DNA from: Picosynechococcus sp. PCC 7003
GTDB taxonomy: Bacteria; Cyanobacteriota; Cyanobacteriia; Cyanobacteriales; MRBY01
Reading direction: 5' to 3'
Assembly: GCF_001693255.1 (NCBI RefSeq)
Contig: NZ_CP016474.1
Location: forward strand, 2,808,661-2,872,660
DNA: 64,000 nt
Numbering within the stretch: position 1 is the first letter of the stretch; the number at the start of each line of letters is the position of its first letter. Shown here in pieces: positions 29,690 to 41,228 of the stretch. Both the position numbers and the translations under genes were made by a program. The notes below the pieces were generated by a model, which saw only the letters and a program-made list of their open reading frames with translations, had not been told where the DNA came from and ran no database searches.

Positions 29690-30169
29690 ATGACTACTTT
29701 CGCTTTCTCCCGTCCCCAATCCCTCAAACTGGCTACTGCTGGTGCTCTCCTCGCTCTCGGTGTTCTCAGCCTCGCCCAACCCGCTAAAGCTGACAATGTT
29801 TCTAGCAGCACCATGATTTCTGAACAGACCAGTGCCGCCGTCGGTGTCGGTAACTCCACCTCTAATGGTATGGGCCAATCAAATTTCCAAAATCAGAGCG
29901 GTTTCTTCAGTGGTGGTGACAACGGTGCCCAGTCCACGATTGTCGGTTCTCAAACTGCCGTGGCTGATGGCTTTTTCAACAATGTCAACAACAACCTCGG
30001 TCAATCCAGTACTCAACAACAATCCGGAGTCCTTGGGTTCGGCAATAATGCCAGCGTTGCCCAGGTGGGTGCAAGCCAAACAGGCGCGGGGATTGGTTTC
30101 GGCAATAGCGTCAACAACAGCAGTTTCCAGAACAGCTTCCAAAACCAAAGCTCCATCTTTTCTTTCTAA
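29690..30169 (+). CDS. secreted Gln/Asn/Ser/Gly-rich repeat protein, amyloid- or curlin-like
   Basis: 159 residues. Signal peptide (LKLATAGALLALGVLSLAQPAKA, cleavage after AKA). The mature part lacks Cys and contains imperfect repeats of about 30-35 residues alternating polar clusters and Gly turns: SQTAVADGFFNNVNNN, QSSTQQQSGVLGFGNNASV, SQTGAGIGFGNSVNNSS, QNSFQNQSSI. Regular Q/N pairs with Gly spacing resemble curli-type beta-solenoid subunits. No curli secretion genes are in the window. I call it amyloid-like by composition only. The gene is first of three similar short secreted proteins on the same strand. Confidence 0.6.
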   Translation: MTTFAFSRPQSLKLATAGALLALGVLSLAQPAKADNVSSSTMISEQTSAAVGVGNSTSNGMGQSNFQNQSGFFSGGDNGAQSTIVGSQTAVADGFFNNVNNNLGQSSTQQQSGVLGFGNNASVAQVGASQTGAGIGFGNSVNNSSFQNSFQNQSSIFSF

Positions 30170-30180
30170 GACCGACACCA

Positions 30181-30221
30181 GGGCAGTGGTTTAACCGAAC
30201 TCCCATAGCTGCCCGGTTTTT
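30181..30221 (+). terminator. possible partial terminator inside the secreted-protein operon
   Basis: GGGCAG ... CTGCCC (22-nt internal part) followed by GGTTTTT lies between the first and second secreted-protein genes. A leaky terminator here would raise the first gene's mRNA over the others, as in many fibre operons. The long loop lowers confidence. Confidence 0.4.
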
Positions 30222-30250
30222 CCCCTAGTCCCTTCACCGAGGCCAAATCA

Positions 30251-30679
30251 ATGAAAATTCTCTTTGCTGGTTCCCCCTTCTGGATGATCTTTACCCCTTC
30301 TCTGCTTGTACCCGTTACTTCCATTAGTATGCCTGCCCAGGCAGCCTGTGTGATGACCGATGTGTCCCTCCAAGTGGCAATCCACGGTTCCCACACTCCA
30401 GCTAACCAAAGCAACCAAGTCTTTATGGGCACAGGCAACCAACCCTGCTGGGGCAACACCACAACCAACACGAGCAGCCAGCTTTATGTTGGCTCTGGTA
30501 ACACTACCCAACAACGCACCAGTAGTCACTTTGTTGATGGCAATGGCGCGAATCCCCTGGCTCCCTACGGCATCCAAAGTCCAACCATTGGCACCCAAAT
30601 TAGTGTTCCCATTGATATCTACAGTCCCGCCCACGATCCAAATTTCCTGGAGTCCCTGGGATTACCCATTAATCCTTAA
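30251..30679 (+). CDS. secreted Asn/Thr/Ser/Gln-rich protein
   Basis: 142 residues. N-terminal signal (LLVPVTSISMPAQAA). The mature protein repeats a short element of the type NQSNQVFMGTGNQ / TSSQLYVGSGNTTQQRTSS / FVDGNG, again polar and Gly-spaced, with two or three Cys (AACVM, PCWG). The end (ISVPIDIYSPAHDPNFLESLG) is non-repetitive. No family recognised. Composition and position suggest that it is a minor partner of the preceding amyloid-like protein. Confidence 0.55.
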   Translation: MKILFAGSPFWMIFTPSLLVPVTSISMPAQAACVMTDVSLQVAIHGSHTPANQSNQVFMGTGNQPCWGNTTTNTSSQLYVGSGNTTQQRTSSHFVDGNGANPLAPYGIQSPTIGTQISVPIDIYSPAHDPNFLESLGLPINP

Positions 30680-30720
30680 ATTGACCGCTTACTTTTTACT
30701 CGCCCCCGGAGAAACTAACC

Positions 30721-31134
30721 ATGTTTAATACAACTCGCAACCTCGCTGTTTTTGGTTTAACAATGCTACTGCCCCTTAGTTTTGTCCCTGGGGCGATCGC
30801 CGACGACTATCAACCCTGGCTGAGCGTAGAAGATGCCCAAGAATTCTGTAATACCCAGGAAATGGAAGACATGACCCAAGTGAACAGTTTCCATAACGAG
30901 GCCACGGTGACAGACAGCACCAGCACCCCAGACAGTACGACCAGCCAACATATCGATGCCCAAAATACAGGCTGGGGTATGCAAACCATCGGTTCAATGA
31001 GTGCCAAGGATTGCTCTGCCGTCATCCAAGCAGAAGCCCACCGTTATGCCACCTACCAACAATTAGAAAATGTACGCTATGTCAATGACTCTAATTTGCG
31101 CCAGGGACTCCTCGGTAATATGTTGGCTTGGTAA
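30721..31134 (+). CDS. secreted protein of the same operon, unknown
   Basis: 137 residues. Signal peptide (LAVFGLTMLLPLSFVPGAIA, cleavage near AIAD). The mature protein has two cysteines (QEFCNTQ and AKDCSAV) that could form a disulfide, a Thr/Ser/Asp-rich centre (VTDSTSTPDSTTSQH) and a helical C-terminus (QAEAHRYATYQQLENVRYV). No family recognised. It is 41 bp after the second secreted-protein gene and completes the three-gene group. Confidence 0.55.
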   Translation: MFNTTRNLAVFGLTMLLPLSFVPGAIADDYQPWLSVEDAQEFCNTQEMEDMTQVNSFHNEATVTDSTSTPDSTTSQHIDAQNTGWGMQTIGSMSAKDCSAVIQAEAHRYATYQQLENVRYVNDSNLRQGLLGNMLAW

Positions 31135-31241: not shown

Positions 31242-32660
31242 ATGAGTTATCCGCAGCAGTACTGGCATTTATATCGCATCAGTCTCCAGCACCGCCAAGG
31301 ATATCACTGGGCACCGCTCCCAACGGCCCAAACCTGGTTAGAGACTACAACTTTTTCGGCTAATTCTTTACCAGAACAGCTCCTCCAGGTGTTTCAAGCG
31401 ACCCAAGGAGAACCACACCGCCAGGCATTAGCGGGATTGTGTTTACGGTGTTATGTGTCCCAACCGATTCTCCAAAGTTGCCAACGCCTCGCGAGTTTAT
31501 TTAGTGCCCAACAAAATTTTTCTTACCAAGACCTTTTGCCCCTGGTGCTCCACGACGACGGCCAGAGGTTAATTTTGATCGATGAGGCCACAGACAGCAA
31601 TCAAGTTCAACTCAACGAAGATAGCCAGCCTAGCCCCTGCCAGTTCCAAATTTTTGCGGTGGAAATTTTACGTTCCTATGGGGCGCAGCGGGAAAATAAA
31701 CTTAGCTTGAAGAATTGGGCTTTTTTGAAAACAAAACAACACCCGGACATTCGCGCTTTTTTAGCAGAATTTGGCTTTCAACACCTCACCGATTGGGCGC
31801 TTTTAAACCGCGCCCGTAAAGGTCAGTTTGAGCAGTTAGTGCCTGCGGATCAAAGTTTACTCAAAGCTTTCCATGCCGTGTATCGCCGCGATCGCCGTCA
31901 ACAAACTAAACAGCGCACCAAATGCCAGACCCCTACGGAGGCGCAACTTTTGGAAATGGATGCCCACTGCGTTGACCAGGGTTATCCGAGCCGCACCCCC
32001 AAATTACTCCTGGGAGATTTGCATCGCCTCGCCGAACAGTTGCGGCAATATGATATTTGGCGATCGCGCGAAAGTTTAGAAACCTATGATGCCGACAGTG
32101 GTGATTATGCCCCCAGGCGAGATCTCCCCCACGAAAGCCTCGATGAAGGGAACCTCGAACAACGGGAGATGATCCAATTTCTGCACAACCAATTGGCGAT
32201 CTCCTTTGATGAGAGCCTCCAGGACAACCTCAAACAGAAACAACAAAAACTCGCCAAAAGCAAACGCTACAAACCCTTTGCCGATCACTATTTGCAAGGT
32301 CTTTCTCTTTATTACATCCAGGCCCAATCCCTCGCGGAGATTGCGCCCCAACTGGGCATGAGTAGCTGGGATCAAGCCCGCCGCATCCTCAACCCCGGCG
32401 ATTTGTTGAACCAAGTGCGCCGCCAAACCACGGAAAAATTACTCGCCAAACTCCTTGATCTGGCCCGCCAAAAAGGACTAACTGGCCCAGAACCCGACCC
32501 AAACTACCTAAGTTCCCTTTGCCAGCAACTAGAACAATTTGTAGACCAAGAACTGTTTACGGAGGCCGCCGCCGAAATCCGCAGTGGTAAGAACCGTCGC
32601 TTTGACAGTGCCTACGCCCAAAAACTAAAGCATTACTTGACGAATGCCGCCCCAAACTAA
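31242..32660 (+). CDS. sigma-70 region-4-like regulatory protein
   Basis: 472 residues from ATG 31242 with a strong AGGGGAG site. A helical, Gln/Arg-rich protein. Around residues 330-400 the string HYLQGLSLYYIQAQSLAEIA followed by PQLGMSSWDQARRIL has the spacing of a sigma region 4 helix-turn-helix (helix, LxxIAxxLGM turn, recognition helix with ARR). A segment near 175-225 (RRDRRQQTKQRT) is basic. Region 2 motifs are not evident, so promoter binding as a classical sigma factor is unproven. It begins the DUF1822/CHAT group and may control it. Confidence 0.55.
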   Translation: MSYPQQYWHLYRISLQHRQGYHWAPLPTAQTWLETTTFSANSLPEQLLQVFQATQGEPHRQALAGLCLRCYVSQPILQSCQRLASLFSAQQNFSYQDLLPLVLHDDGQRLILIDEATDSNQVQLNEDSQPSPCQFQIFAVEILRSYGAQRENKLSLKNWAFLKTKQHPDIRAFLAEFGFQHLTDWALLNRARKGQFEQLVPADQSLLKAFHAVYRRDRRQQTKQRTKCQTPTEAQLLEMDAHCVDQGYPSRTPKLLLGDLHRLAEQLRQYDIWRSRESLETYDADSGDYAPRRDLPHESLDEGNLEQREMIQFLHNQLAISFDESLQDNLKQKQQKLAKSKRYKPFADHYLQGLSLYYIQAQSLAEIAPQLGMSSWDQARRILNPGDLLNQVRRQTTEKLLAKLLDLARQKGLTGPEPDPNYLSSLCQQLEQFVDQELFTEAAAEIRSGKNRRFDSAYAQKLKHYLTNAAPN

Positions 32661-32693
32661 CCCTAATCTTGCTTGACGCCGAGGAGCCCCAAA

Positions 32694-33698
32694 ATGTTCA
32701 CCCAATCTGAATTCCGCCTACTGATCCCCGAAGAAATTACCCTCAGCGAGCTTGACTATGCCCTCGTCCAAACCTGGCCCGATGGAAATTTGCCAGAAGC
32801 CGACCAGTGGCAAGCCTATCTAAACGGCCTGGGGTTAGTGGCCTTTGAAAATTGGCTTGGCGATCGCCTCCCAGAAAAACGTCGCCAGCGGGATCTTTCT
32901 CACCTGCCCCAGGTGGCCTACGTGACCGTAGGAGGTTTTAAAGTTTGTCTTTTGGCCCAGAGCGATTACCTCGACGAACAGGTGTTCTGGCCCCAGGACT
33001 ATCTTGAACAGCCGGAACTCGCCGCCCATTTCTACGGCATTGTCGAAGTGGATGAAGAAGCAGAAACCGTCATTCTCAGAGGGATTAGCCGGGGCGATCG
33101 CCTTCAAACCGCACCCAAACGAGATGGTCATTATCGCCTCAGCCTCGATCATTTTGATGCGGAACTGAACCATTTCCTCGCCGACTGCCGTTACCTTTCC
33201 CCCGCCGCCATTCCTCTCCCTGTGAATGTCTTCGCGGAACTGAAAGCCCAAGTCACCGAAACTGCTACCAAACTCGGCAACTGGTTTGACGGGCTCCTCG
33301 ACCAAGGCTGGCAAGCCCTGGATCAACTCATGATGCCCGAAGCCCAGCTCGCCTTTGCGACCCGAAACTTGAGTGAAGATATCCAAGCCGGTAAGCTTCT
33401 CGATCTCGGCTTGAGCCTGGGCAATGAACAGGTGGTTCTCCTCGTTACCCTCGCCCCCAGTGACGAAGACGATAAAGTTCGCATCCAAGCGCGACTGCTA
33501 CCCTTTGAGGCAGAGTATCTCCCGGCAGATTTAAGTATTTCCCTCAAATCAAAATCTGGCAAGGTGCTGCAAACGATCACCAGTCGGCAACAGGACAGCT
33601 ACATTCAACTCAAACCCTTCAAGGGTGTCCCCGGCAAAGTATTCCAAGTGGAGGTAAGCGGCGATGGTTGCACCGTCAACGAAACCTTTGAAATTTAA
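32694..33698 (+). CDS. DUF1822 family protein
   Basis: 334 residues from ATG 32694 (GAGGAG ribosome binding site). The beginning FRLLIPEEITLSELDYAL, the WQAYLNGLGLVAFENWL block and the later VGGFKVCLL / DYLEQPELAAHFYGIVEVDE pattern are those of DUF1822, a cyanobacterial family of unknown function regularly encoded next to CHAT-domain genes. C-terminal part: LGLSLGNEQVVLLVTLAPS and LPADLSISLKSKSG. Its last 35 bp overlap the CHAT gene, so the two are translationally coupled, which suggests a physical partnership. Confidence 0.82.
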   Translation: MFTQSEFRLLIPEEITLSELDYALVQTWPDGNLPEADQWQAYLNGLGLVAFENWLGDRLPEKRRQRDLSHLPQVAYVTVGGFKVCLLAQSDYLDEQVFWPQDYLEQPELAAHFYGIVEVDEEAETVILRGISRGDRLQTAPKRDGHYRLSLDHFDAELNHFLADCRYLSPAAIPLPVNVFAELKAQVTETATKLGNWFDGLLDQGWQALDQLMMPEAQLAFATRNLSEDIQAGKLLDLGLSLGNEQVVLLVTLAPSDEDDKVRIQARLLPFEAEYLPADLSISLKSKSGKVLQTITSRQQDSYIQLKPFKGVPGKVFQVEVSGDGCTVNETFEI

Positions 33699-36600
33699 TT
33701 GGCTCACCGACGCCAGCGTGACCATTTCCCTTGCGTTTGGTCGGGGCAGCCTCACCGAAGGCTTTCCGATGGTTACCGCGCAACTTTGGGAGATGGATGT
33801 TCCCTTGCCCCAGCAATTCGTCGGACAGCTCCCGCCTTTTCCAGACCTACTCAATAGTCTGCAACAGTGGCAAACGGTTTATCTCGCCCTCGCCCAACGG
33901 CTCCAATTGGGACGACAACAAGCCGAGGGAATACGCAGCTTTGATGAAGACGACGATGATTTTGAGATCGAAGAAGACGCCGTTACCCATGTGTCCCAGG
34001 TCAGCTTTGAAGATTTGTCCCAGCGGCTCCAACGGCAACTGAATGAATGGCTCCTCAGCCCCGGATTTACGCCCATTGTCCAGGCATTGCGATCGCATCT
34101 TTCCCCAGAGATGCCCCTGCGGCTGATTTTGCAGACGGACGACCCGCACCTGCACCATCTACCCTGGCAGGGTTGGCAGTTTTTGGTGGATTATCCCCTA
34201 GCGGAAGTGGCCCTCAGTCAGCCCCAGTTCCACCGTTTAAAAGAAATTACTCCCCAGAAAAAGCGGCAACGGGTACGAATTTTGGCGATCCTCGGCAGTA
34301 GCCAGGGCATTGACCTCGCCGGCGAACAGGAACAATTGTCAGCCATTCCCGATGCGGAAGTGCAGTTTCTCGCGCAACCCTCCCGCCAGGAATTTGATAC
34401 GGCCCTCTGGGATGACCAGGGTTGGGATATTTTATTTTTCGCGGGCCACAGCCAGACAGAGCAGCAAACGGGCCGCCTTTATCTCCACGACGGGCCAGAA
34501 CACCGCAGCTTAACCCTGGAGCATTTACAGGAAGGCCTCCGCACGGCCCTGGAACGGGGGTTACAGTTGGCAATTTTCAATTCCTGTGATGGGTTGGGTT
34601 TGGCGAATAGTTTAGGTAATCTCCAGATTCCCGTGACCATCGTGATGCGCGAACCGGTGCCGAATCGAGTCGCCCAGGACTTTTTTCAGCGTTTCCTCGA
34701 AGGTTATGCGATCGCCCAATTACCTCTTTATCAGGCGGTCAAACAGGCCCGGCGCCAACTGCAAGGCTTGGAAAATGATTATCCTGGGGCGGCTTGGTTG
34801 CCAATCATTTGCCAAAATAGCGCCCTCCTGCCCCCCACTTGGTTGCAACTCGGTGGTTTACCTCCCTGTCCCTATCGTGGTTTAAATACCTTCCAGGAAC
34901 AGGATGCAGCCGTTTATTTTGGGCGGGAAAGTCTGCGGGAACAGTTGGTAGAACGACTCCAAAGCCAACCGCTATTACCGTTGGTGGGTGCGTCCGGTAG
35001 TGGGAAATCGTCCCTCGTTTTTGCGGGAATTGTGCCCCAGTTACGGCAGGATGCCCGGTACGATTGGGCGATCCAAGTGATGCGCCCCGAAAATGATCCT
35101 GTGGCAAGGTTGGCCCATGCTGTGGCGACATGGCAGCCTAATCTTTCAGAAATAGATTTATGTCGTGCTTTTCAAAAAGATCCCCAAAGTTTGGCGACAG
35201 CGTTAAGCCAAATTCAGCAAACTCAACCAGGACAAACCCGCCGGCTGCTAGTTATTGATCAATTCGAAGAGCTTTTTACTCTCAATGGCCCAGATATTCA
35301 ACGACAATTTTTAGACCTGTTGGTGACGGCCATTGAAGAAGCCCCCCAATTTACGGTGTTATTGACCCTGCGGGCGGATTGTCTCGGGCCAGTGCTGGAA
35401 CATCCCGACCTGGGGAAACTCTGGCAACGGCATGAACCAGAATTTCTTTTACCCCTATCTGTAGAAGATCTCCAGGCGGCGATCGCCAAACCGGCTGCTT
35501 TAATGGGTGTCCGTTTTGAGCCGGGTTTAGTCGATAAAATCATCGACACGATCCAGGATCAGGCAGGCAATTTACCCCTGTTGGAATTTGCCCTGACTCA
35601 ACTGTGGCCCCACCAGGAACGGGGTTGGCTCACCCATGCCGCTTACGAAAACCTAGGGGGAATTACCGCCGCCCTCCGGGACTATGCTGAAGAGGTTTAT
35701 GGCAAGATTTCCCCCAGCCAACGGCCCCAGGTACAAGCCCTCTTTTTACAACTGATCCAAGTGCGGGAAGGAGCCGAGGCCACCCGACGCATTCTGCCGA
35801 AAACAGAGGTGAAAGAATGGCCTCTCGCATTGCAATTGGCGACAGAACGGCTTTTGACCACCAACCGCGACTCAATCCGGGGCACAGAAACGGTGGAAAT
35901 TGTCCATGAAGCCCTGATTCGCCATTGGCATCGTCTCCAGGGCTGGATTGCGGATAACGCTGATTTCCTGCGGTGGCAGACCCGTTTAAATAATGCCATT
36001 GAACAATGGGAAAGCCACAATAACAGCGACGGTTATCTATTGCGCCAAGCGCCCTTGGTGGAAGCAGAATTTTGGCTGGATAAAAGTCCCGATCGCCTCA
36101 GTGATGCCCAACGGTTTTTTATTCATCTGGGGCTGGATTTGCGCACCCAAGAGGAAACGGCGATCGCCCTACGGCAACAGCGGGAATTAGACCAAGAACG
36201 CCAAATTCGGCGGGGTGCCCAAAAACTGGCGGTGCTTTCTTCTGTGGCCTTGATGTTGCTGAGTTTGGCCGGGGGCTGGACCTGGTGGGAACGGCAGCGT
36301 TCTCTACAAATTATCGAGACGGTTTCGATCAATAGTGCGGCGACGACCCCGGCATTGCTGCGGGATTTACCTCGTTTCCTCACCATTGCCCAACGGCGGC
36401 AACAAACGGGGGACTTTGATTTGGCGATCGCCTATTATCAGAAAATTTTGCAGGAAGTCGCCAAGCTCCAGGAGCAGCCTGATTTAGCGGCGGCCCAACA
36501 GCAGCAACTGCAAAGCCTCGCTAGCCAAACAGAAGCTCAATTAGTGGCGGTGATCCAAAGCGAAAAATTGCCCGCCCTAGAAACCAGCCTCGCCCAAGGA

Positions 36601-36984
36601 GAATTTGGTAGCCTTAAACCCGAAACAAACCTGTTGGACTACGAAAACCAGTACACGCCCGGGGCACTCCAGGAAACTTATGGCCTCCTTTTACGTCCCC
36701 AGGGAGTATACGCCGACCGCAACCAGGACGGAGAAATTAACCACAGCAGCGAGGCGAGCCAACTGCCCTGCGACCTTTTGCAACGGATTGAAACCCTCTG
36801 GCGTGACCATACCGATCAACAATGTGGTTTCTATGGCGATCGTTCCTTTTATGCGGCCCCGACCTGTGCGCCCCTCCAAGGAAGAACGTTAACAGAAACG
36901 ATTTTTGTGGGCGATTACCAGGCGATCGCCGCGCAACTCCAACAATGTCAAGTGGCCCCAGCCGCTGCCGACCCCTATGAATAA
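33664..36984 (+). CDS. CHAT protease - STAND NTPase membrane protein
   Basis: 1106 residues. N-terminal CHAT domain (caspase/separase fold, about 150-385) with catalytic His262 (FFAGHSQ) and Cys308 (FNSCDGLG). Then nSTAND1-type NTPase (about 402-720): PYRGLNTFQEQDAAVYFGRE, Walker A GASGSGKSS (442-450), Walker B RLLVIDQFEELF and sensor LTLRADCLG. A winged-helix/helical part (IVHEALIRHWHRL) precedes one membrane segment (about 854-875), a TPR-like helical region and a C-terminal extracytoplasmic segment with the Ca-loop-like DRNQDGEINHSSE (about 1018-1030). Both enzymatic sets look intact. Such fusions are thought to act as signal-activated proteases in stress, defence or cell death; the trigger here is unknown. 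Confidence 0.88.
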   Translation: MVAPSTKPLKFNWLTDASVTISLAFGRGSLTEGFPMVTAQLWEMDVPLPQQFVGQLPPFPDLLNSLQQWQTVYLALAQRLQLGRQQAEGIRSFDEDDDDFEIEEDAVTHVSQVSFEDLSQRLQRQLNEWLLSPGFTPIVQALRSHLSPEMPLRLILQTDDPHLHHLPWQGWQFLVDYPLAEVALSQPQFHRLKEITPQKKRQRVRILAILGSSQGIDLAGEQEQLSAIPDAEVQFLAQPSRQEFDTALWDDQGWDILFFAGHSQTEQQTGRLYLHDGPEHRSLTLEHLQEGLRTALERGLQLAIFNSCDGLGLANSLGNLQIPVTIVMREPVPNRVAQDFFQRFLEGYAIAQLPLYQAVKQARRQLQGLENDYPGAAWLPIICQNSALLPPTWLQLGGLPPCPYRGLNTFQEQDAAVYFGRESLREQLVERLQSQPLLPLVGASGSGKSSLVFAGIVPQLRQDARYDWAIQVMRPENDPVARLAHAVATWQPNLSEIDLCRAFQKDPQSLATALSQIQQTQPGQTRRLLVIDQFEELFTLNGPDIQRQFLDLLVTAIEEAPQFTVLLTLRADCLGPVLEHPDLGKLWQRHEPEFLLPLSVEDLQAAIAKPAALMGVRFEPGLVDKIIDTIQDQAGNLPLLEFALTQLWPHQERGWLTHAAYENLGGITAALRDYAEEVYGKISPSQRPQVQALFLQLIQVREGAEATRRILPKTEVKEWPLALQLATERLLTTNRDSIRGTETVEIVHEALIRHWHRLQGWIADNADFLRWQTRLNNAIEQWESHNNSDGYLLRQAPLVEAEFWLDKSPDRLSDAQRFFIHLGLDLRTQEETAIALRQQRELDQERQIRRGAQKLAVLSSVALMLLSLAGGWTWWERQRSLQIIETVSINSAATTPALLRDLPRFLTIAQRRQQTGDFDLAIAYYQKILQEVAKLQEQPDLAAAQQQQLQSLASQTEAQLVAVIQSEKLPALETSLAQGEFGSLKPETNLLDYENQYTPGALQETYGLLLRPQGVYADRNQDGEINHSSEASQLPCDLLQRIETLWRDHTDQQCGFYGDRSFYAAPTCAPLQGRTLTETIFVGDYQAIAAQLQQCQVAPAAADPYE

Positions 36985-37003
36985 TCACGGAGGAAAGAAA
37001 AAG

Positions 37004-38170
37004 ATGACGCCCCCTAAAATTGCCCTCCTCGCCAGTTTCTGCTGTTTAGGACTCGCCCCCCTCGCCGTGGCAACCCTGCCCCAGGCCAGTCAAATTGTCT
37101 CGGTGCGGGGCAACTATCTGATGGTTCAACGGGGGAATCAACGCCCCAACTTTGCCCGGGTGGGCGATCGCCTGGAAAATCGCAGTCAAACCCTCCTTGT
37201 GCCGGGCAATAACTACTCCCTAGCGCGGTTATCTTTTATTGGAGGCGGTCAAAATTATGCCGGTTTAGCGGTGCAAGCTGGCCCCGATCTCCAGCAGACC
37301 CATTATCAATTTCCCTGTGTGGTCAGCCGAGGCAAAGTCACCCTCAGTTGGCGTCAGGGGAACAATCGCGGTTGTGAAGAAGGGATTTATCTCAGTCCGA
37401 ATCGCAACAATAACAAAGGCTTAAAACAAACAGAAAAAGAAAAAGCTTCAACGAAAGGTATGGAAGGGATCGTTATCCAACCCAAGGACAGCAATGAAGT
37501 GATTCTCCAGGCCCGTACCCTTGGCGATCGCCAAATTGTGGATGCCCTGGTTGGGGAAATCACCCTTACTTCAGCCGCCCATCCCAGTGGTTTTACCCTC
37601 CAACCCGGCCAACGCTATAGCCTCGATGGCAACAATCCCAGTGCGAGTCCCCAGGTGGAGCCGATCAATGCAGCGGCCATTCTCAATTCCCCCGAATTGC
37701 AGGAATTTTTAGATCCCAGCAGTTGGATGATGACCGATGACGCCATTGCTAAGACTCCAGATGTCCCTTTGCCGATTCGTCCCCCCGTCCGGCAACCTTC
37801 TAGCGGAGAAACCTTTAACCCAGAGAATGGTGGCTTCTGCGATAACTACTTCAGTGCGCTCCAGAACTTTCTCCAAGAAGCCCAAAGCATCGTGCCCGGT
37901 GTTTGGGACTTTGCCAATAATCCCTATGCATTGTTAACCCAACCGGAAACTAATTGGTTTAACGAAGGGACGCTCCCCGATGAGCCGCAATTAAACCGAC
38001 TGCGTCAACGGGCGACGGACTTTATTAATGAGTTTGAGCGCTGTCAATTTGCATTGCCGAATTTGCCCACTGATACCGAGCCTGAAAACAGTCCCAACGA
38101 TCTGCCCCCTGAAAATCCAGATTCAGATCTATCCCCAGAAATTTATCCCGATACTTCTCCATACCAATAG
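37004..38170 (+). CDS. secreted FecR-like protein
   Basis: 388 residues from ATG 37004, chosen for the GGAGG site 10 bases upstream. Signal peptide (IALLASFCCLGLAPLAVA). Residues about 28-130 carry a FecR-like pattern: ASQIVSVRGNYLMVQR, ARVGDRLENRSQTLLV, LARLSFIGGGQNY and VTLSWRQGNNRGCEEG. A second beta-rich part follows, then a Pro/Asp/Ser-rich end. It is paralogous to the next gene (same length, shared N-terminal blocks). It lies 20 bp after the CHAT gene on the same strand, and would be positioned outside the membrane where the CHAT protein's C-terminal part is. Confidence 0.6.
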   Translation: MTPPKIALLASFCCLGLAPLAVATLPQASQIVSVRGNYLMVQRGNQRPNFARVGDRLENRSQTLLVPGNNYSLARLSFIGGGQNYAGLAVQAGPDLQQTHYQFPCVVSRGKVTLSWRQGNNRGCEEGIYLSPNRNNNKGLKQTEKEKASTKGMEGIVIQPKDSNEVILQARTLGDRQIVDALVGEITLTSAAHPSGFTLQPGQRYSLDGNNPSASPQVEPINAAAILNSPELQEFLDPSSWMMTDDAIAKTPDVPLPIRPPVRQPSSGETFNPENGGFCDNYFSALQNFLQEAQSIVPGVWDFANNPYALLTQPETNWFNEGTLPDEPQLNRLRQRATDFINEFERCQFALPNLPTDTEPENSPNDLPPENPDSDLSPEIYPDTSPYQ

Positions 38171-38174
38171 AACA

Positions 38175-39341
38175 ATGCGACCATTTAAACCGATTACTTT
38201 AGTCAATCTCACCCTGTTTGGCCTATTGGGTCTGACCTCTCTACTCCAGGCCAGCACCCCCAATGCCAGTCAAATTGCCTCCCTCCAAGGCGATCGCCTA
38301 TTACTCCAAAATGGCAACCAACGCCCCAACCCAGCCCGGGTGGGCAATCGCCTCACGAACCAAAGTCAGGCTTTGATTGTCCCCGGCAACAACCGTTCCC
38401 TAGCGCGTCTCGCGTTCGTGGGGGGTGGCCAAAGTTATGATGGCCTCCTGTTACAAGCGGGGCCAGATCAACAACAAACTGAATACCGTTTCCCCTGCGT
38501 CATTGTCGGCGGCAAAGTAACCCTCAGTTGGCGTCAAGGTAATAATCGCGGCTGTAAATATGGCGTCCATCTTAGCCCCGGGCTCAGTGCGGCGGCCCCC
38601 AAACAACAGCAGAAACCCAGTGCTACCAATAAGCAACTGCCCCAAGGCACCCCAGAAAATAAAGAAGCCTCTCTCACCATTCAACCCCTCGGCAATGATC
38701 CCATTTTGCTCAGGGCCGTTGTTGATGATGATCTCCAGGCAATCGAGACGCTCCAGGGGGAAGTTTTAATTATCTCGGCCCAATACCCAGAGGGTCTGCG
38801 CCTCCGTAGTGGTGAGCGTTATTTCAATTTGGGTGACGGCCAAGATCAAGTGGAGCCCTTTAACCCCACCGAGGCGATCGCCAATTCCCCAGACTTACAA
38901 GAATTTTTAAACCCAGAGATTTGGCGCGAGTCCCAATTACCTGCCCCCGTTTCCCAGGACATCAACAATCACCTGATCGCGTTTCAGGATCTCAATCAAA
39001 ATACAGCCGCCACCGATACCCCAGACATGACCGACTTGAGTTTAGCTTGCCAGGCTGAGGTGGATTTTTATCTAGCGAACCTCAAAGCTACCATGGGGAA
39101 TACCTGGCGGCCTCCCTATCCCCCATCTCCAGGGGTATGGCGCACCGAAGTCAGCTATCTACTCACCAAAGATGGTCGAGTCCAAAATCTCCAGGTGGCC
39201 CAATCTAGCGGAGCCAACATTATCGACCAAGCGGCCCTGAGCCATGTGCGTACCCTCGAACAGCGATTCGAGCCGTTCCCCAGTTGCTATCCCTACGAAG
39301 CTTTGCCCGTCGATAACAACTTCACCGTCCGTTACCAATAG
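38175..39341 (+). CDS. secreted FecR-like protein with TonB-type C-terminal domain
   Basis: 388 residues from ATG 38175, 5 bp after the preceding stop. Signal segment (LVNLTLFGLLGLTSLLQAS). The N-terminal FecR-like block (ASQIASLQGDRLLLQ, ARVGNRLTNQSQALIV, LARLAFVGGGQSY, VTLSWRQGNNRGC) is clearly homologous to that of its upstream neighbour. The last ~85 residues differ: VSYLLTKDGRVQNLQVAQ and QAALSHVRTLEQRFEPFP match the TonB C-terminal fold, the part of TonB-like proteins that contacts outer-membrane partners. A tandem duplication followed by domain change is the simplest explanation. Confidence 0.7.
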   Translation: MRPFKPITLVNLTLFGLLGLTSLLQASTPNASQIASLQGDRLLLQNGNQRPNPARVGNRLTNQSQALIVPGNNRSLARLAFVGGGQSYDGLLLQAGPDQQQTEYRFPCVIVGGKVTLSWRQGNNRGCKYGVHLSPGLSAAAPKQQQKPSATNKQLPQGTPENKEASLTIQPLGNDPILLRAVVDDDLQAIETLQGEVLIISAQYPEGLRLRSGERYFNLGDGQDQVEPFNPTEAIANSPDLQEFLNPEIWRESQLPAPVSQDINNHLIAFQDLNQNTAATDTPDMTDLSLACQAEVDFYLANLKATMGNTWRPPYPPSPGVWRTEVSYLLTKDGRVQNLQVAQSSGANIIDQAALSHVRTLEQRFEPFPSCYPYEALPVDNNFTVRYQ

Positions 39342-39462
39342 GAGCATTTAGCCGAAAAACTGCATCAGTTCCCCAAGCCAGTAACTACTACCCAGCATCG
39401 AGCCAAGGTGATGATTCTCCCGCACCCCTCGAAGCCGATTTTTTTTACTGGAAGAACCTGCC

Positions 39463-40290
39463 ATGTTGTTTCAATCTCCTTTTTGCCAACGCCTCCTTAA
39501 GTCTGCGACGATTCCTTTTCTGTCTCTTTTGGTGATGGGCACCCCAGCCCCCGCCTTTGCGAATCCCCAAGGGGCGATCGCCGAGCCTTCCCTCGAAGTC
39601 CAACTGCAACAACTCAAAGCCCGCCTCGTTGGCCTCGAAGCCCGCACTGGCAGCCCCAACGACCCAGCAACCCAAACCGTTGCCGTGGCACCCATTAACT
39701 CTTCCCCCAATCATCAGTCCCCTACCCCGACGACCATTGCGACGCCTCCGGTAGCCCCCGCTGCCCCCACGTCCCTCATGGCGAAACTTAGTCCCGCCAG
39801 TGCAATTTTGGTGAACTTTCCCAGCGCTGTCGTTGTCGATGTCGGCCAGAAAGATGACTATCCCCTGACCCTGCCGTTGTTCCAAGACCTCCGGAGTGCT
39901 TCTGGAGAACTGCTTGCTCCGGCCAATACCCCCATTACCCTAAGGGTTAAACCCCACAAAGATGGTGCGATTCTGGTGGCTGATTCGATTATCGTCAACG
40001 GCCAAGTGGTTAATATCCAGGCCCAAAGCAGCACGATGATTCCCGGTCGTACCGTCACCCAGCGCACTGCCCAGGAGATGGCGAGACAAAACAGTGCCGT
40101 TTGGGGGAACCTGACGACCTCCTTGGCTGGGGCGGCTGGCACAAGTATTGGAACTCAACAACAGTTTGGTTTCCTCGGCGCGGCGGTGGGGATTCTCTCC
40201 GGCATGGGTTCCCCCGATGACCTCCGGATCGTCGAAATTCCGGCAGGCTCTGTGCATCTCCTGCAAGTCCAAGTCCAGAATCAGAATTAA
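39463..40290 (+). CDS. exported protein with VirB10/TrbI-like C-terminal features
   Basis: 275 residues. Signal peptide (FLSLLVMGTPAPAFA), a short coiled coil (SLEVQLQQLKARLVGLEAR), a Pro/Thr-rich linker and a C-terminal domain. The run ELLAPANTPITLRVKP, GAILVADSIIVNGQVVNI and a Gly/Ala hydrophobic stretch (TSLAGAAGTSIG ... GFLGAAVGILSG) recall VirB10/TrbI-type proteins, where an "IPxGxxxxG" core precedes a helical region; the match is weak. No other secretion genes are present. It follows the TonB-type gene by 121 bp and is the last gene before the IS630 insertion. Confidence 0.5.
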   Translation: MLFQSPFCQRLLKSATIPFLSLLVMGTPAPAFANPQGAIAEPSLEVQLQQLKARLVGLEARTGSPNDPATQTVAVAPINSSPNHQSPTPTTIATPPVAPAAPTSLMAKLSPASAILVNFPSAVVVDVGQKDDYPLTLPLFQDLRSASGELLAPANTPITLRVKPHKDGAILVADSIIVNGQVVNIQAQSSTMIPGRTVTQRTAQEMARQNSAVWGNLTTSLAGAAGTSIGTQQQFGFLGAAVGILSGMGSPDDLRIVEIPAGSVHLLQVQVQNQN

Positions 40291-40387: not shown

Positions 40388-40936
40388 TTAAGGGTCATCG
40401 CAATAATCTCTAATAAGCTGGTCAAGACTGGTTCCCTCCGGCAAATATTCCCTTCTCTTCTTGAGAGCAGCAAAATCATGTTCTATTTTGTTGAAATCTG
40501 GGGAGTACTTTGGCAGAAACTTGACGATGTGACCCTTCTGGTCGGCGAGTTCCCTTATCCTGCTTTTGCGGTGAATTGGAGCATTATCCATGACTAATAT
40601 TGAGTTCTCCTTCAGCTGCGGCATCAACCAATGGGATAACCATGTCTCAAAACAGATGGCATTCACGCTTCCTGTGACCAACATCGGGGCAATCATCTTG
40701 CCCTCTTGTCGAGCGGCCAACAGATTCTCTCGCTTTTCGCGTTTTCCTGTCCTCTCTCCAAATAATTTCTGACCTCTGGGTGCCCATCCATGTCTTCGAT
40801 GCACGCGGTTATCGAAACCTGATTCATCGATAAAGGCTAATTTCTCTGCTCCTACCCTTTGGAGTAACTCTCGTAGTTCTCTGAGATATTGTTGCCGTTC
40901 TCGATGGTTACGCTCTCGATATTTTTGCTGTTTTTT
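40388..40936 (-). CDS. IS630 transposase, DDE catalytic part (orfB)
   Basis: Catalytic part of the IS630 transposase: AFIDESGF (first Asp), LVMDNAPIHRK (second Asp) and FNKIEHDFAALKKR (Glu) give the DDE triad. The frame has no ATG at its head; it opens after a TAA just upstream of a run of eight A (minus strand, 40938-40931), and the only standalone start is a GTG at 40804, which would lose the first catalytic Asp. It is therefore expected to be made as a fusion with orfA by slippage on the A run. I placed its upstream end at the slip site. Confidence 0.82.
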   Translation of the reverse strand, partial: KKQQKYRERNHRERQQYLRELRELLQRVGAEKLAFIDESGFDNRVHRRHGWAPRGQKLFGERTGKREKRENLLAARQEGKMIAPMLVTGSVNAICFETWLSHWLMPQLKENSILVMDNAPIHRKSRIRELADQKGHIVKFLPKYSPDFNKIEHDFAALKKRREYLPEGTSLDQLIRDYCDDP

Positions 40937-41228
40937 TTCTCGTTATCTTCATCTGTTTGAGGGCATAATGCATTGAACTTGTGGTCACCCCAAAGTGCTT
41001 GGCTCTATCGAGCAGTCTTGCTTCTGGATACTGCCTGACATGCTCGGCGACTGCTTGCCAGTCGAGCTTACGACGACGACGATTCACTACTGTTGGTTTC
41101 AGGTCGGGACGCTTGAGCCAACTATAGACTGTCGCTTCTGAAACTTCATAGCGTCTTGCAGCCTCTGCTTTGCTGCCGCCAGAGCGGACAAAGTTCACCA
41201 CTCTTGTTCTGAGGTCTAAGCTATACAT
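40908..41228 (-). CDS. IS630 transposase, DNA-binding part (orfA)
   Basis: 106 residues: MYSLDLRTRVVNFVRSGGSK followed by a first helix-turn-helix (EAARRYEVSEATVYSWLKR) and a second Pax-like one (EHVRQYPEARLLDRAKHFG, SSMHYALKQM). These bind the terminal repeats. The frame ends at TAA 40908 soon after the A8 run where the catalytic frame is entered. Confidence 0.85.
   Translation of the reverse strand: MYSLDLRTRVVNFVRSGGSKAEAARRYEVSEATVYSWLKRPDLKPTVVNRRRRKLDWQAVAEHVRQYPEARLLDRAKHFGVTTSSMHYALKQMKITRKKTAKISRA

Follow-up and report, generated by a model that had tools for sequence, protein, structure and literature searches.

Candidate Cell-Surface Signalling around a CHAT-nSTAND1 Membrane Protein and Its Secreted FecR-like Partners in Picosynechococcus sp. 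PCC 7003

Introduction

Do the six consecutive genes at positions 31242-40290 of a 64,000-nucleotide stretch of the Picosynechococcus sp. PCC 7003 genome (hereafter the window) form one system that senses the state of the cell envelope? They encode a sigma-factor-like protein, a DUF1822 protein, a large protein combining a CHAT protease domain, an nSTAND1 NTPase domain, a predicted membrane helix and a C-terminal tail, two FecR-like exported proteins, and a further exported protein. Bacterial STAND and caspase-type switches are mostly read as internal alarms with an unknown trigger, also by Kaur et al., and a signal from outside the membrane, as an earlier note on this DNA proposed for the six genes, would set this one apart.

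The present analysis shows two modules instead of one six-gene unit: the known module of sigma-like protein, DUF1822 and EACC2-CHAT is fused with a newly noticed module of STAND-tail and FecR-like protein. We read the combination, by analogy with described systems and with a probability of about 0.4, as an operon for cell-surface signalling whose caspase/STAND switch would take the place of the one-piece FecR and relieve a restraint of DUF1822 on the sigma factor. The anatomy of the locus (gene order, domain order, predicted FecR-type fold, pairing of tail and FecR-like gene, and protease swaps) is well supported; the signalling we infer. The 3.35 Mb genome is denoted G000 and belongs to a genus sample of six; other genomes and loci are given as G and L numbers.

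Results and Discussion

The CHAT-nSTAND1 Membrane Protein

The labels CHAT, STAND and DUF1822 of the earlier note are solid, all three resting on Pfam matches. The central protein (33664-36984, + strand, as are all features below unless stated) begins with a domain in the EACC2 position and the CHAT protease domain (residues 1-400, 33664-34863; PF12770, E 2.1e-15), whose catalytic motifs are intact in a motif scan, with His 262 in FAGHS and the Cys in NSCDG. Both motifs are found in this order in 34 of 36 relatives. A common N-terminal domain precedes CHAT in 36 open reading frames (ORFs) according to a profile of our own, the name EACC2 denoting its position and not a comparison with an EACC2 model. 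The nSTAND1 NTPase domain follows at residues 403-789 (34870-36030; PF20703, E 1.8e-116; Walker A motif GASGSGKSS), and the hydropathy scan predicts a single membrane helix at residues 855-873 (36226-36282), with a basic N-terminal flank, ahead of the tail. As judged from the domain assignments, the C-terminus of EACC2-CHAT proteins is swappable, here consisting of nSTAND1, one predicted membrane helix and the tail.

Pairing of the Tail with a FecR-like Gene

Profile A1, whose sole source is the six FecR-like proteins of the genus, has matches in 18/291 genomes, and at 10 of the 14 loci from this search (L015-L028) the match lies directly 3' of an nSTAND1 protein in a locus with neither a DUF1822 nor an EACC2 match. 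The tail of the window's CHAT protein, with its conserved cysteines and EF-hand-like loop, is shared by these nSTAND1 proteins. No tail protein accompanies the A1 matches at L014, L022, L023 and L026, L018 is where a contig of the L035 genome ends, and at L029 and L030 the match is confined to the TonB_C end.

Strong matches to profile A4 of the tail (E <1e-40) number 17, in 16/291 genomes, and are set apart from a cloud of weak ones with E of 5e-7 or higher. With L004 and L055 added, these constitute a first set of 19 tail ORFs, in 17 of which the FecR-like gene is next downstream; of the two exceptions, L035 is cut off by the end of its contig and L033 has a FecR-like gene seemingly split by a transposase-like insert. 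With an enlarged tail profile, which finds 23/388 genomes at E <=1e-20, 10 new loci were obtained, where new means not counted before, the n=400 genome sample overlapping the n=300 sample. Out of sample, the FecR-like gene is next in eight of the ten, and the other two are at or near contig ends: L117 ends 0.16 kb past the tail, and at L121 the tail is broken, the contig ends 0.6 kb away, and no FecR-like ORF was found there. At L118 the tail protein is broken by a seeming transposase and the FecR-like gene is still present. The FecR-like profiles FECRall and FECR9 include first-set loci; L031-L034 and L055 are outside FECRall, and L112-L121 are outside both. It is well supported by these comparisons that the tail proteins, scattered through the cyanobacteria, are strictly paired with a secreted FecR-like gene, and the guess that the C-terminus of the CHAT protein links to the FecR-like proteins is borne out to the extent that this type of tail goes with such a gene across loci.

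The neighbourhoods of DUF1822 give the complementary picture. FecR-like ORFs occur in 0 of the 59 surveyed DUF1822 regions without a tail and in 1/60 overall, which is the tail-bearing region. Most DUF1822-CHAT pairs are without FecR genes, which speaks against the six-gene unit of the earlier note.

Matched Swaps of Receptor, Partner, and Protease

The 36 EACC2-CHAT ORFs fall into five with the tail, all followed by a FecR-like gene (5/5), 19 with CHASE2, followed by DUF928 in 14 cases and by FecR in none, and 12 in which neither was found. No FecR-like gene was found after any of the 31 tail-less ORFs, five of which (L005, L052, L072, L084 and L087) reach the end of the fetched sequence before the next gene. 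The association of tail and FecR has a Fisher p of 3.8e-5 when set against the 17 CHASE2 loci that do not abut a contig end, or 8.8e-4 if the tail loci count as three lineages and the CHASE2 loci stay uncollapsed. The arrangement of EACC2-CHAT-CHASE2 followed by DUF928 (L001, L006, L054, L065, L068 and others) is a second matched receptor-partner pair.

A protease is fused or adjacent to the tail protein at 16 of 29 loci, namely EACC2-CHAT at 5, Peptidase_C14 at 8 and another CHAT at 3. The Peptidase_C14 caspase domain is fused or, at L112, in a neighbouring frame (8/8 tested), and the three other CHAT cases comprise one fusion and two separate genes just upstream. At L113 (G170) the sigma-like, DUF1822 and FecR-like genes are kept around a C14-nSTAND-tail protein, with C14 in place of EACC2-CHAT. 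Receptor and partner swap together, and the protease type swaps within the same context.

Other genes were seen 5' of tail-STAND proteins. At L017 (7294-9237) the product of this gene is another STAND-type protein, which has a NACHT domain (E 8.9e-11), and at L015, L016, L033, L035 and L121, where the tail-STAND protein has no fused protease, it is a small gene of 127-147 residues, for which no family above the cut-off was found in the four scanned (L033 left out).

Predicted Fold of the FecR-like Proteins

FecR-like protein 1 (about 37004-38170) was assigned from its fold predicted with AlphaFold2 (AF2), and its export by eye and from hydropathy. FecR-like protein 2 (38175-39341) aligns with it at 39% identity and ends in a TonB_C domain (PF03544, E 8.5e-8). 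The AF2 model of the first has a mean predicted local distance difference test score (pLDDT) of 73.5, most blocks of the beta domain being above 90. It matches PupR in its periplasmic domain (residues 111-251 of chain 6ovk_R; Z 13.3, 133 residues, 2.8 A) and the FecR-family anti-sigma factor 4m0h (Z 13.2, the matches spanning 127-133 residues; Foldseek E 8.9e-4), and the next unrelated row in the comparison has a Z of 4.9. The matched part of PupR is by its position probably the juxta-membrane subdomain (PMC7186176; this and the other papers cited here are drawn on in part, and statements about them refer to those parts).

The predicted model supports a periplasmic FecR/PupR-type fold for these proteins, and the FecR-like label stands on the fold while Pfam gives it nothing, as none of the 18 members of the set has a Pfam FecR match. 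A PDB sequence search with the FecR-like profile also returned nothing relevant. Only about 27 residues precede the first strand of FecR-like 1, forming a helix that resembles an export signal, and the cytoplasmic anti-sigma domain of the classical FecR is absent from the chain. The C-termini vary, with a CAP domain in 8/18 members (best E 1.5e-24) and TonB_C in 2/18.

By eye, CAP-bearing FecR-like proteins are present in distant cyanobacteria (L015-L018, L020, L025 and L027). A third FecR-like protein of the PCC 7003 genome (L014, 9112-9930; G000:C1 about 2288126) has no STAND neighbour in the fetched stretch and is followed by long secreted-looking proteins. The proteins at L029 (9136-10422, G014) and L030 (9831-10979, G391) have only a TonB_C-like end in common with FecR-like 2.

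The Tail

According to alignments A4 and A8, the tail (36283-36984) consists of a helical bundle followed by a weakly GUN4-like region that contains an EF-hand-like loop and conserved cysteines; the window tail has four cysteines. The AF2 model (pLDDT 88.4; predicted template modelling score 0.86) has a helical bundle and then a part with fewer helices, and the tail is predicted to lie outside the membrane.

The GUN4 model matches 9 of 12 tail members at E up to 0.1 (best 3.6e-5), in the window tail at residues 164-201, and hhalign aligns the tail with six GUN4 proteins over 64 columns (probability 89.7, E 1.8e-6). When 12 whole genomes were searched for GUN4, the orthologous tail of G387 was found (5.3e-5) and the tails of G000 and G058 were not. 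Foldseek places the GUN4 structure 7e2r at rank 26 for the tail model (E 1.4, probability 0.69). GUN4 is absent among the 50 rows listed by the VIA structure search, which chiefly cover residues 26-113 and are helical bundles with Z of 10-12.5, usual for such bundles, and a PDB sequence search with the tail profile gave nothing relevant. These profile matches suggest, as a lead, that the second part of the tail is GUN4-related. GUN4 is discussed by Kaur et al. 2020 (PMC7159879) as an intracellular tetrapyrrole sensor, whereas a GUN4-like tail here would be outside if the topology is right.

The Sigma-like Protein and DUF1822

The sigma-factor-like protein (31242-32660, 472 residues) is by family relationship a divergent relative of a long sigma-70/extracytoplasmic function (ECF)-like family found upstream of DUF1822. 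Its own family A7 (9 members) matches the sigma-70/ECF superfamily model TIGR02937 in 4/9 members at E up to 0.5; hhalign relates A7 nearly over its full length to the long family A11 (353 columns, probability 98.3, E 1.2e-14), of which 12/12 tested members match TIGR02937. The mixed set A6 matches in 15/27. In a PDB search A11 puts sigma factors first, whereas A6 puts other helix-turn-helix proteins above them. The window-type family has no relation to a short ECF-like family in hhalign (E 0.33), nor the short to the long sigma-like family (probability 4.3). Neither Pfam nor NCBIfam yields the sigma label when given only the window protein, and the family route alone succeeded; the sigma-like label of the earlier note holds in this indirect sense, through the TIGR02937-matching family, and not by a family match of the protein itself.

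The DUF1822 protein (32694-33698; PF08852, E 3.2e-46), whose ORF opens at 32673 with the ATG at 32694 as the likelier start, is the proposed partner or inhibitor of the sigma factor. DUF1822 is present in 240/386 genomes of the phylum sample (E up to 0.001). We surveyed 60 regions, hand-picked among the listed matches, mostly one or two per genus and not at random. A sigma-like gene lies directly 5' of 56 of the 63 DUF1822 ORFs in these regions, a count that is partly circular, as the sigma profiles were trained in part on the upstream genes that they scored. In 31/63 cases the pair stands without CHAT among the next three genes, as a sigma/anti-sigma pair might; 3/63 ORFs are within 1.5 kb of a stretch end. 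Because the pair often stands alone, DUF1822 is read as the partner of the sigma factor, with the protease as an optional input.

Conservation and Boundaries of the Block

The frames confirm the six consecutive same-strand genes with short gaps described in the earlier note. All ORFs are co-oriented, with intergenic gaps of 33, -35, 19, 4 and 121 bp when the DUF1822 start is taken at 32694, and the 35 bp overlap of DUF1822 and CHAT, also claimed there, recurs as -35, -35 and -38 in L003, L004 and L032. The promoter/terminator scan finds no terminator-like site in the + strand intergenic spaces of the block, and its sites are no more numerous than in shuffles, so that it is uninformative on transcript breaks.

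The full block is syntenic in three of the six genus genomes, with three small secreted genes upstream and CHAT protein identities of 91 and 86%, and sigma-like gene, DUF1822, protease-STAND-tail and FecR-like gene are found together at six loci in four families of one order (the window, L003, L004, L032, L055 and L113), with L032, L055 and L113 representing three other families of the order. The block is missing from the other three genus genomes, which carry different loci. Thus L006 (G386) has sigma-like, DUF1822, CHAT with guanylate cyclase and CHASE2, DUF928 and a gene that is haemagglutinin-like by eye. The PCC 7003 genome itself has two DUF1822 loci besides the window, one of which (L001) reads sigma-like, DUF1822, CHAT-CHASE2, DUF928, TPR-CHAT.

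It is very improbable that these are six ordinary genes together by chance or shared expression. The absence of the block from half of the genus sample is what such an origin would lead one to see, as is the sixth gene, which elsewhere is mostly without a tail locus; however, five of the six gene types recur in four families of the order and the tail-FecR pairing is class-wide. The genus synteny and the recurrence in other families show that the block is more than chance.

The sixth gene (39463-40290) encodes an exported protein called VirB10-like in the earlier note, a label for which the searches gave no support: Pfam gives no family at E up to 1, NCBIfam one unrelated model (E 0.1), and the PDB sequences one unrelated chain (E 0.27). 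Its homologues occur in 118/291 genomes (E up to 0.001), and 18 of the 23 strong ones (E <1e-20) among the matches listed are in genomes without a strong tail match. The homologue is on another contig than the tail in G575 and G510 and on the opposite strand in G103. From this distribution the gene is probably a neighbour and not a member of the unit. The six-gene unit was rejected, as FecR-like genes are absent from 59/60 DUF1822 regions and the sixth gene is mostly apart from the tail; the claim fails on the DUF1822-CHAT loci without FecR and on the widespread sixth gene alike.

On the 5' side of the sigma-like gene, the window contains three small secreted-looking genes (29690-31134), the first rich in Gly/Asn/Gln repeats. 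The same order of three is found in L003, L004 and L032, the last from another family, and a homologue of the second in L044. On the 3' side, 97 bp past the sixth gene, two frames on the - strand (40388-41228) resemble, by eye, a split IS630-type transposase.

Relation to Known Systems

The EACC2-caspase systems of Kaur et al. (eLife 2021, PMC8195603) combine a constant EACC2 and caspase with C-termini that vary, STAND and CHASE2 among them, and most neighbourhoods without TRADD-N contain an ECF sigma factor and DUF1822. The window shares with them the caspase-type domain with His/Cys, the variable C-terminus (nSTAND1), DUF1822 and, by family relationship only, the sigma factor. The core of the first three genes is not new, because their association was published in 2021 (PMC8195603). 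The word FecR is absent from the main text of that paper, and the tail-FecR pairing and the swap of CHASE2-DUF928 versus tail-FecR are not in the parts of it drawn on here. The view of the earlier note that a complete unit of this type was undescribed thus fails for the core, and the link to the cell surface still looks new. We found no account of FecR with a STAND NTPase and caspase, or with a CHAT domain, in a literature search mostly without subscription papers and without preprints, which is weak evidence; in the literature on FecR and anti-sigma factors in cyanobacteria, covered partially by title and abstract start, no such system is evident.

The same work proposes autopeptidase activation and a transcriptional output (PMC8195603), from which another explanation of the locus follows, that of a counter-invader or self-destruct system in which STAND would sense an intruder inside the cell, CHAT would activate itself, the sigma-like protein would drive defence, and the FecR-like proteins would be accessory surface factors. 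It is the published proposal for EACC2-caspase/DUF1822/ECF sigma neighbourhoods (PMC8195603), and the variable C-termini and the patchy, often multi-copy occurrence of DUF1822, three loci in the own genome among them, agree with it. We consider it rather unlikely here, though to be taken seriously: a tail so strictly paired with a gene for a secreted FecR-fold protein points outward, and the block stays beside the small secreted genes in three genus genomes and L032.

With FecR/PupR signalling, in which the sigma regulator is itself subject to regulated proteolysis, controlled by a periplasmic domain (PMC7186176), the locus has in common a periplasmic all-beta fold, predicted here, near a sigma-like gene. 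It differs in that the FecR-like proteins have no anti-sigma domain and end in TonB_C, CAP or other C-termini, and in that a STAND protease protein is predicted to cross the membrane. No TonB-dependent transducer family was found in the ten window proteins scanned (27.9-40.3 kb), the rest of the genome not having been searched.

In the type III-E CASP system (Csx29, Csx30 and CASP-sigma), Csx29 (TPR-CHAT) cleaves Csx30, a sigma factor inhibitor (PMC10028731). As far as the gene set alone is compared, both loci encode a CHAT protease and, alongside it, a sigma-like factor and a third protein, but type III-E CASP is RNA-guided, whereas the window system is STAND-linked, membrane-anchored by prediction, and has DUF1822 in the proposed third role. 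The membrane-linked two-gene EACC1 systems (Kaur et al., eLife 2020, PMC7159879) likewise have a caspase-type domain and variable C-termini; FecR and DUF1822 are absent from the main text of that paper, and the systems are prevalent in actinobacteria. The gasdermin analogy of the earlier note found no support, since no gasdermin family is among the matches of the scanned proteins in searches of which none was aimed at gasdermins, and a gasdermin-type pore as the protease target was set aside. Csx29-Csx30 is a closer precedent (PMC10028731).

Proposed Mechanism

In the cell-surface-signalling reading, one or two secreted FecR/PupR-fold proteins would read the state of the envelope outside the inner membrane and pair with the tail, probably stabilized by disulphides, of the single-pass membrane protein. 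A signal on the tail would change the state of the cytoplasmic nSTAND1 NTPase and switch on CHAT on the same chain, as the biology of STAND and CHAT proteins suggests. By analogy with Csx29-Csx30-CASP-sigma, CHAT would then cut DUF1822 and in this way free or change the sigma-like protein, its usual partner, which would turn on envelope genes; the three small secreted genes just upstream could be among its targets. The chain would run from the FecR-like proteins through tail, STAND, CHAT and DUF1822 to sigma, joining the outside half of PupR-type signalling with a Csx29-like inside half.

Several points weigh against this reading. No sigma model of Pfam or NCBIfam matches the sigma-like protein of the window. 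DUF1822 has no solved relative among the PDB sequences, which makes its anti-sigma role a guess, and Kaur et al. term it a TPR protein and assign EACC2 systems to immunity, not to envelope sensing (PMC8195603). The topology of the tail is read from a single predicted helix with a basic flank, and 2/19 tail ORFs are under the helix cut. The GUN4 likeness is a lead only, because the fold search is weak and all matches are below curated cut-offs (29.2 bits for GUN4, with 17.3 for the window tail and 27.6 for L055). At 13/29 tail loci there is no fused or adjacent protease, the upstream gene, scanned in ten of them (not L033, L117 and L120), being in no case a protease, so that the tail-FecR pair does not need one.

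Finally, DUF1822 was not seen in the fetched stretch at 23/29 tail loci, some of them near contig ends. This also agrees with a further explanation, in which the FecR-like proteins and tail-STAND would be an independent envelope module, with the protease fused or adjacent by happenstance and sigma-DUF1822 a mere neighbour and not the output. Such an arrangement appears unlikely in view of the direct fusion to EACC2-CHAT with an overlapping DUF1822 gene, and of L113, where sigma-DUF1822 is retained next to a tail protein with another type of protease.

Conclusions

We put forward the surface-signalling operon as a tentative case of a new architecture, in which a FecR sensor without its anti-sigma half would act via a transmembrane STAND protein whose interchangeable CHAT/C14 protease would cleave a separate sigma inhibitor, DUF1822. 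The fixed secreted FecR-fold partner gives one branch of STAND/caspase proteins an address for the trigger, the periplasm, and a testable binding pair. If the signalling reading is true, the locus would correspond, at the envelope, to the RNA-triggered Csx29-Csx30-sigma circuit, and its outside sensors, tail receptors and proteases would be mixed as modules. It would add to the few known cases of a CHAT protease controlling transcription and would suggest a reason why sigma-DUF1822 pairs are common in cyanobacteria.

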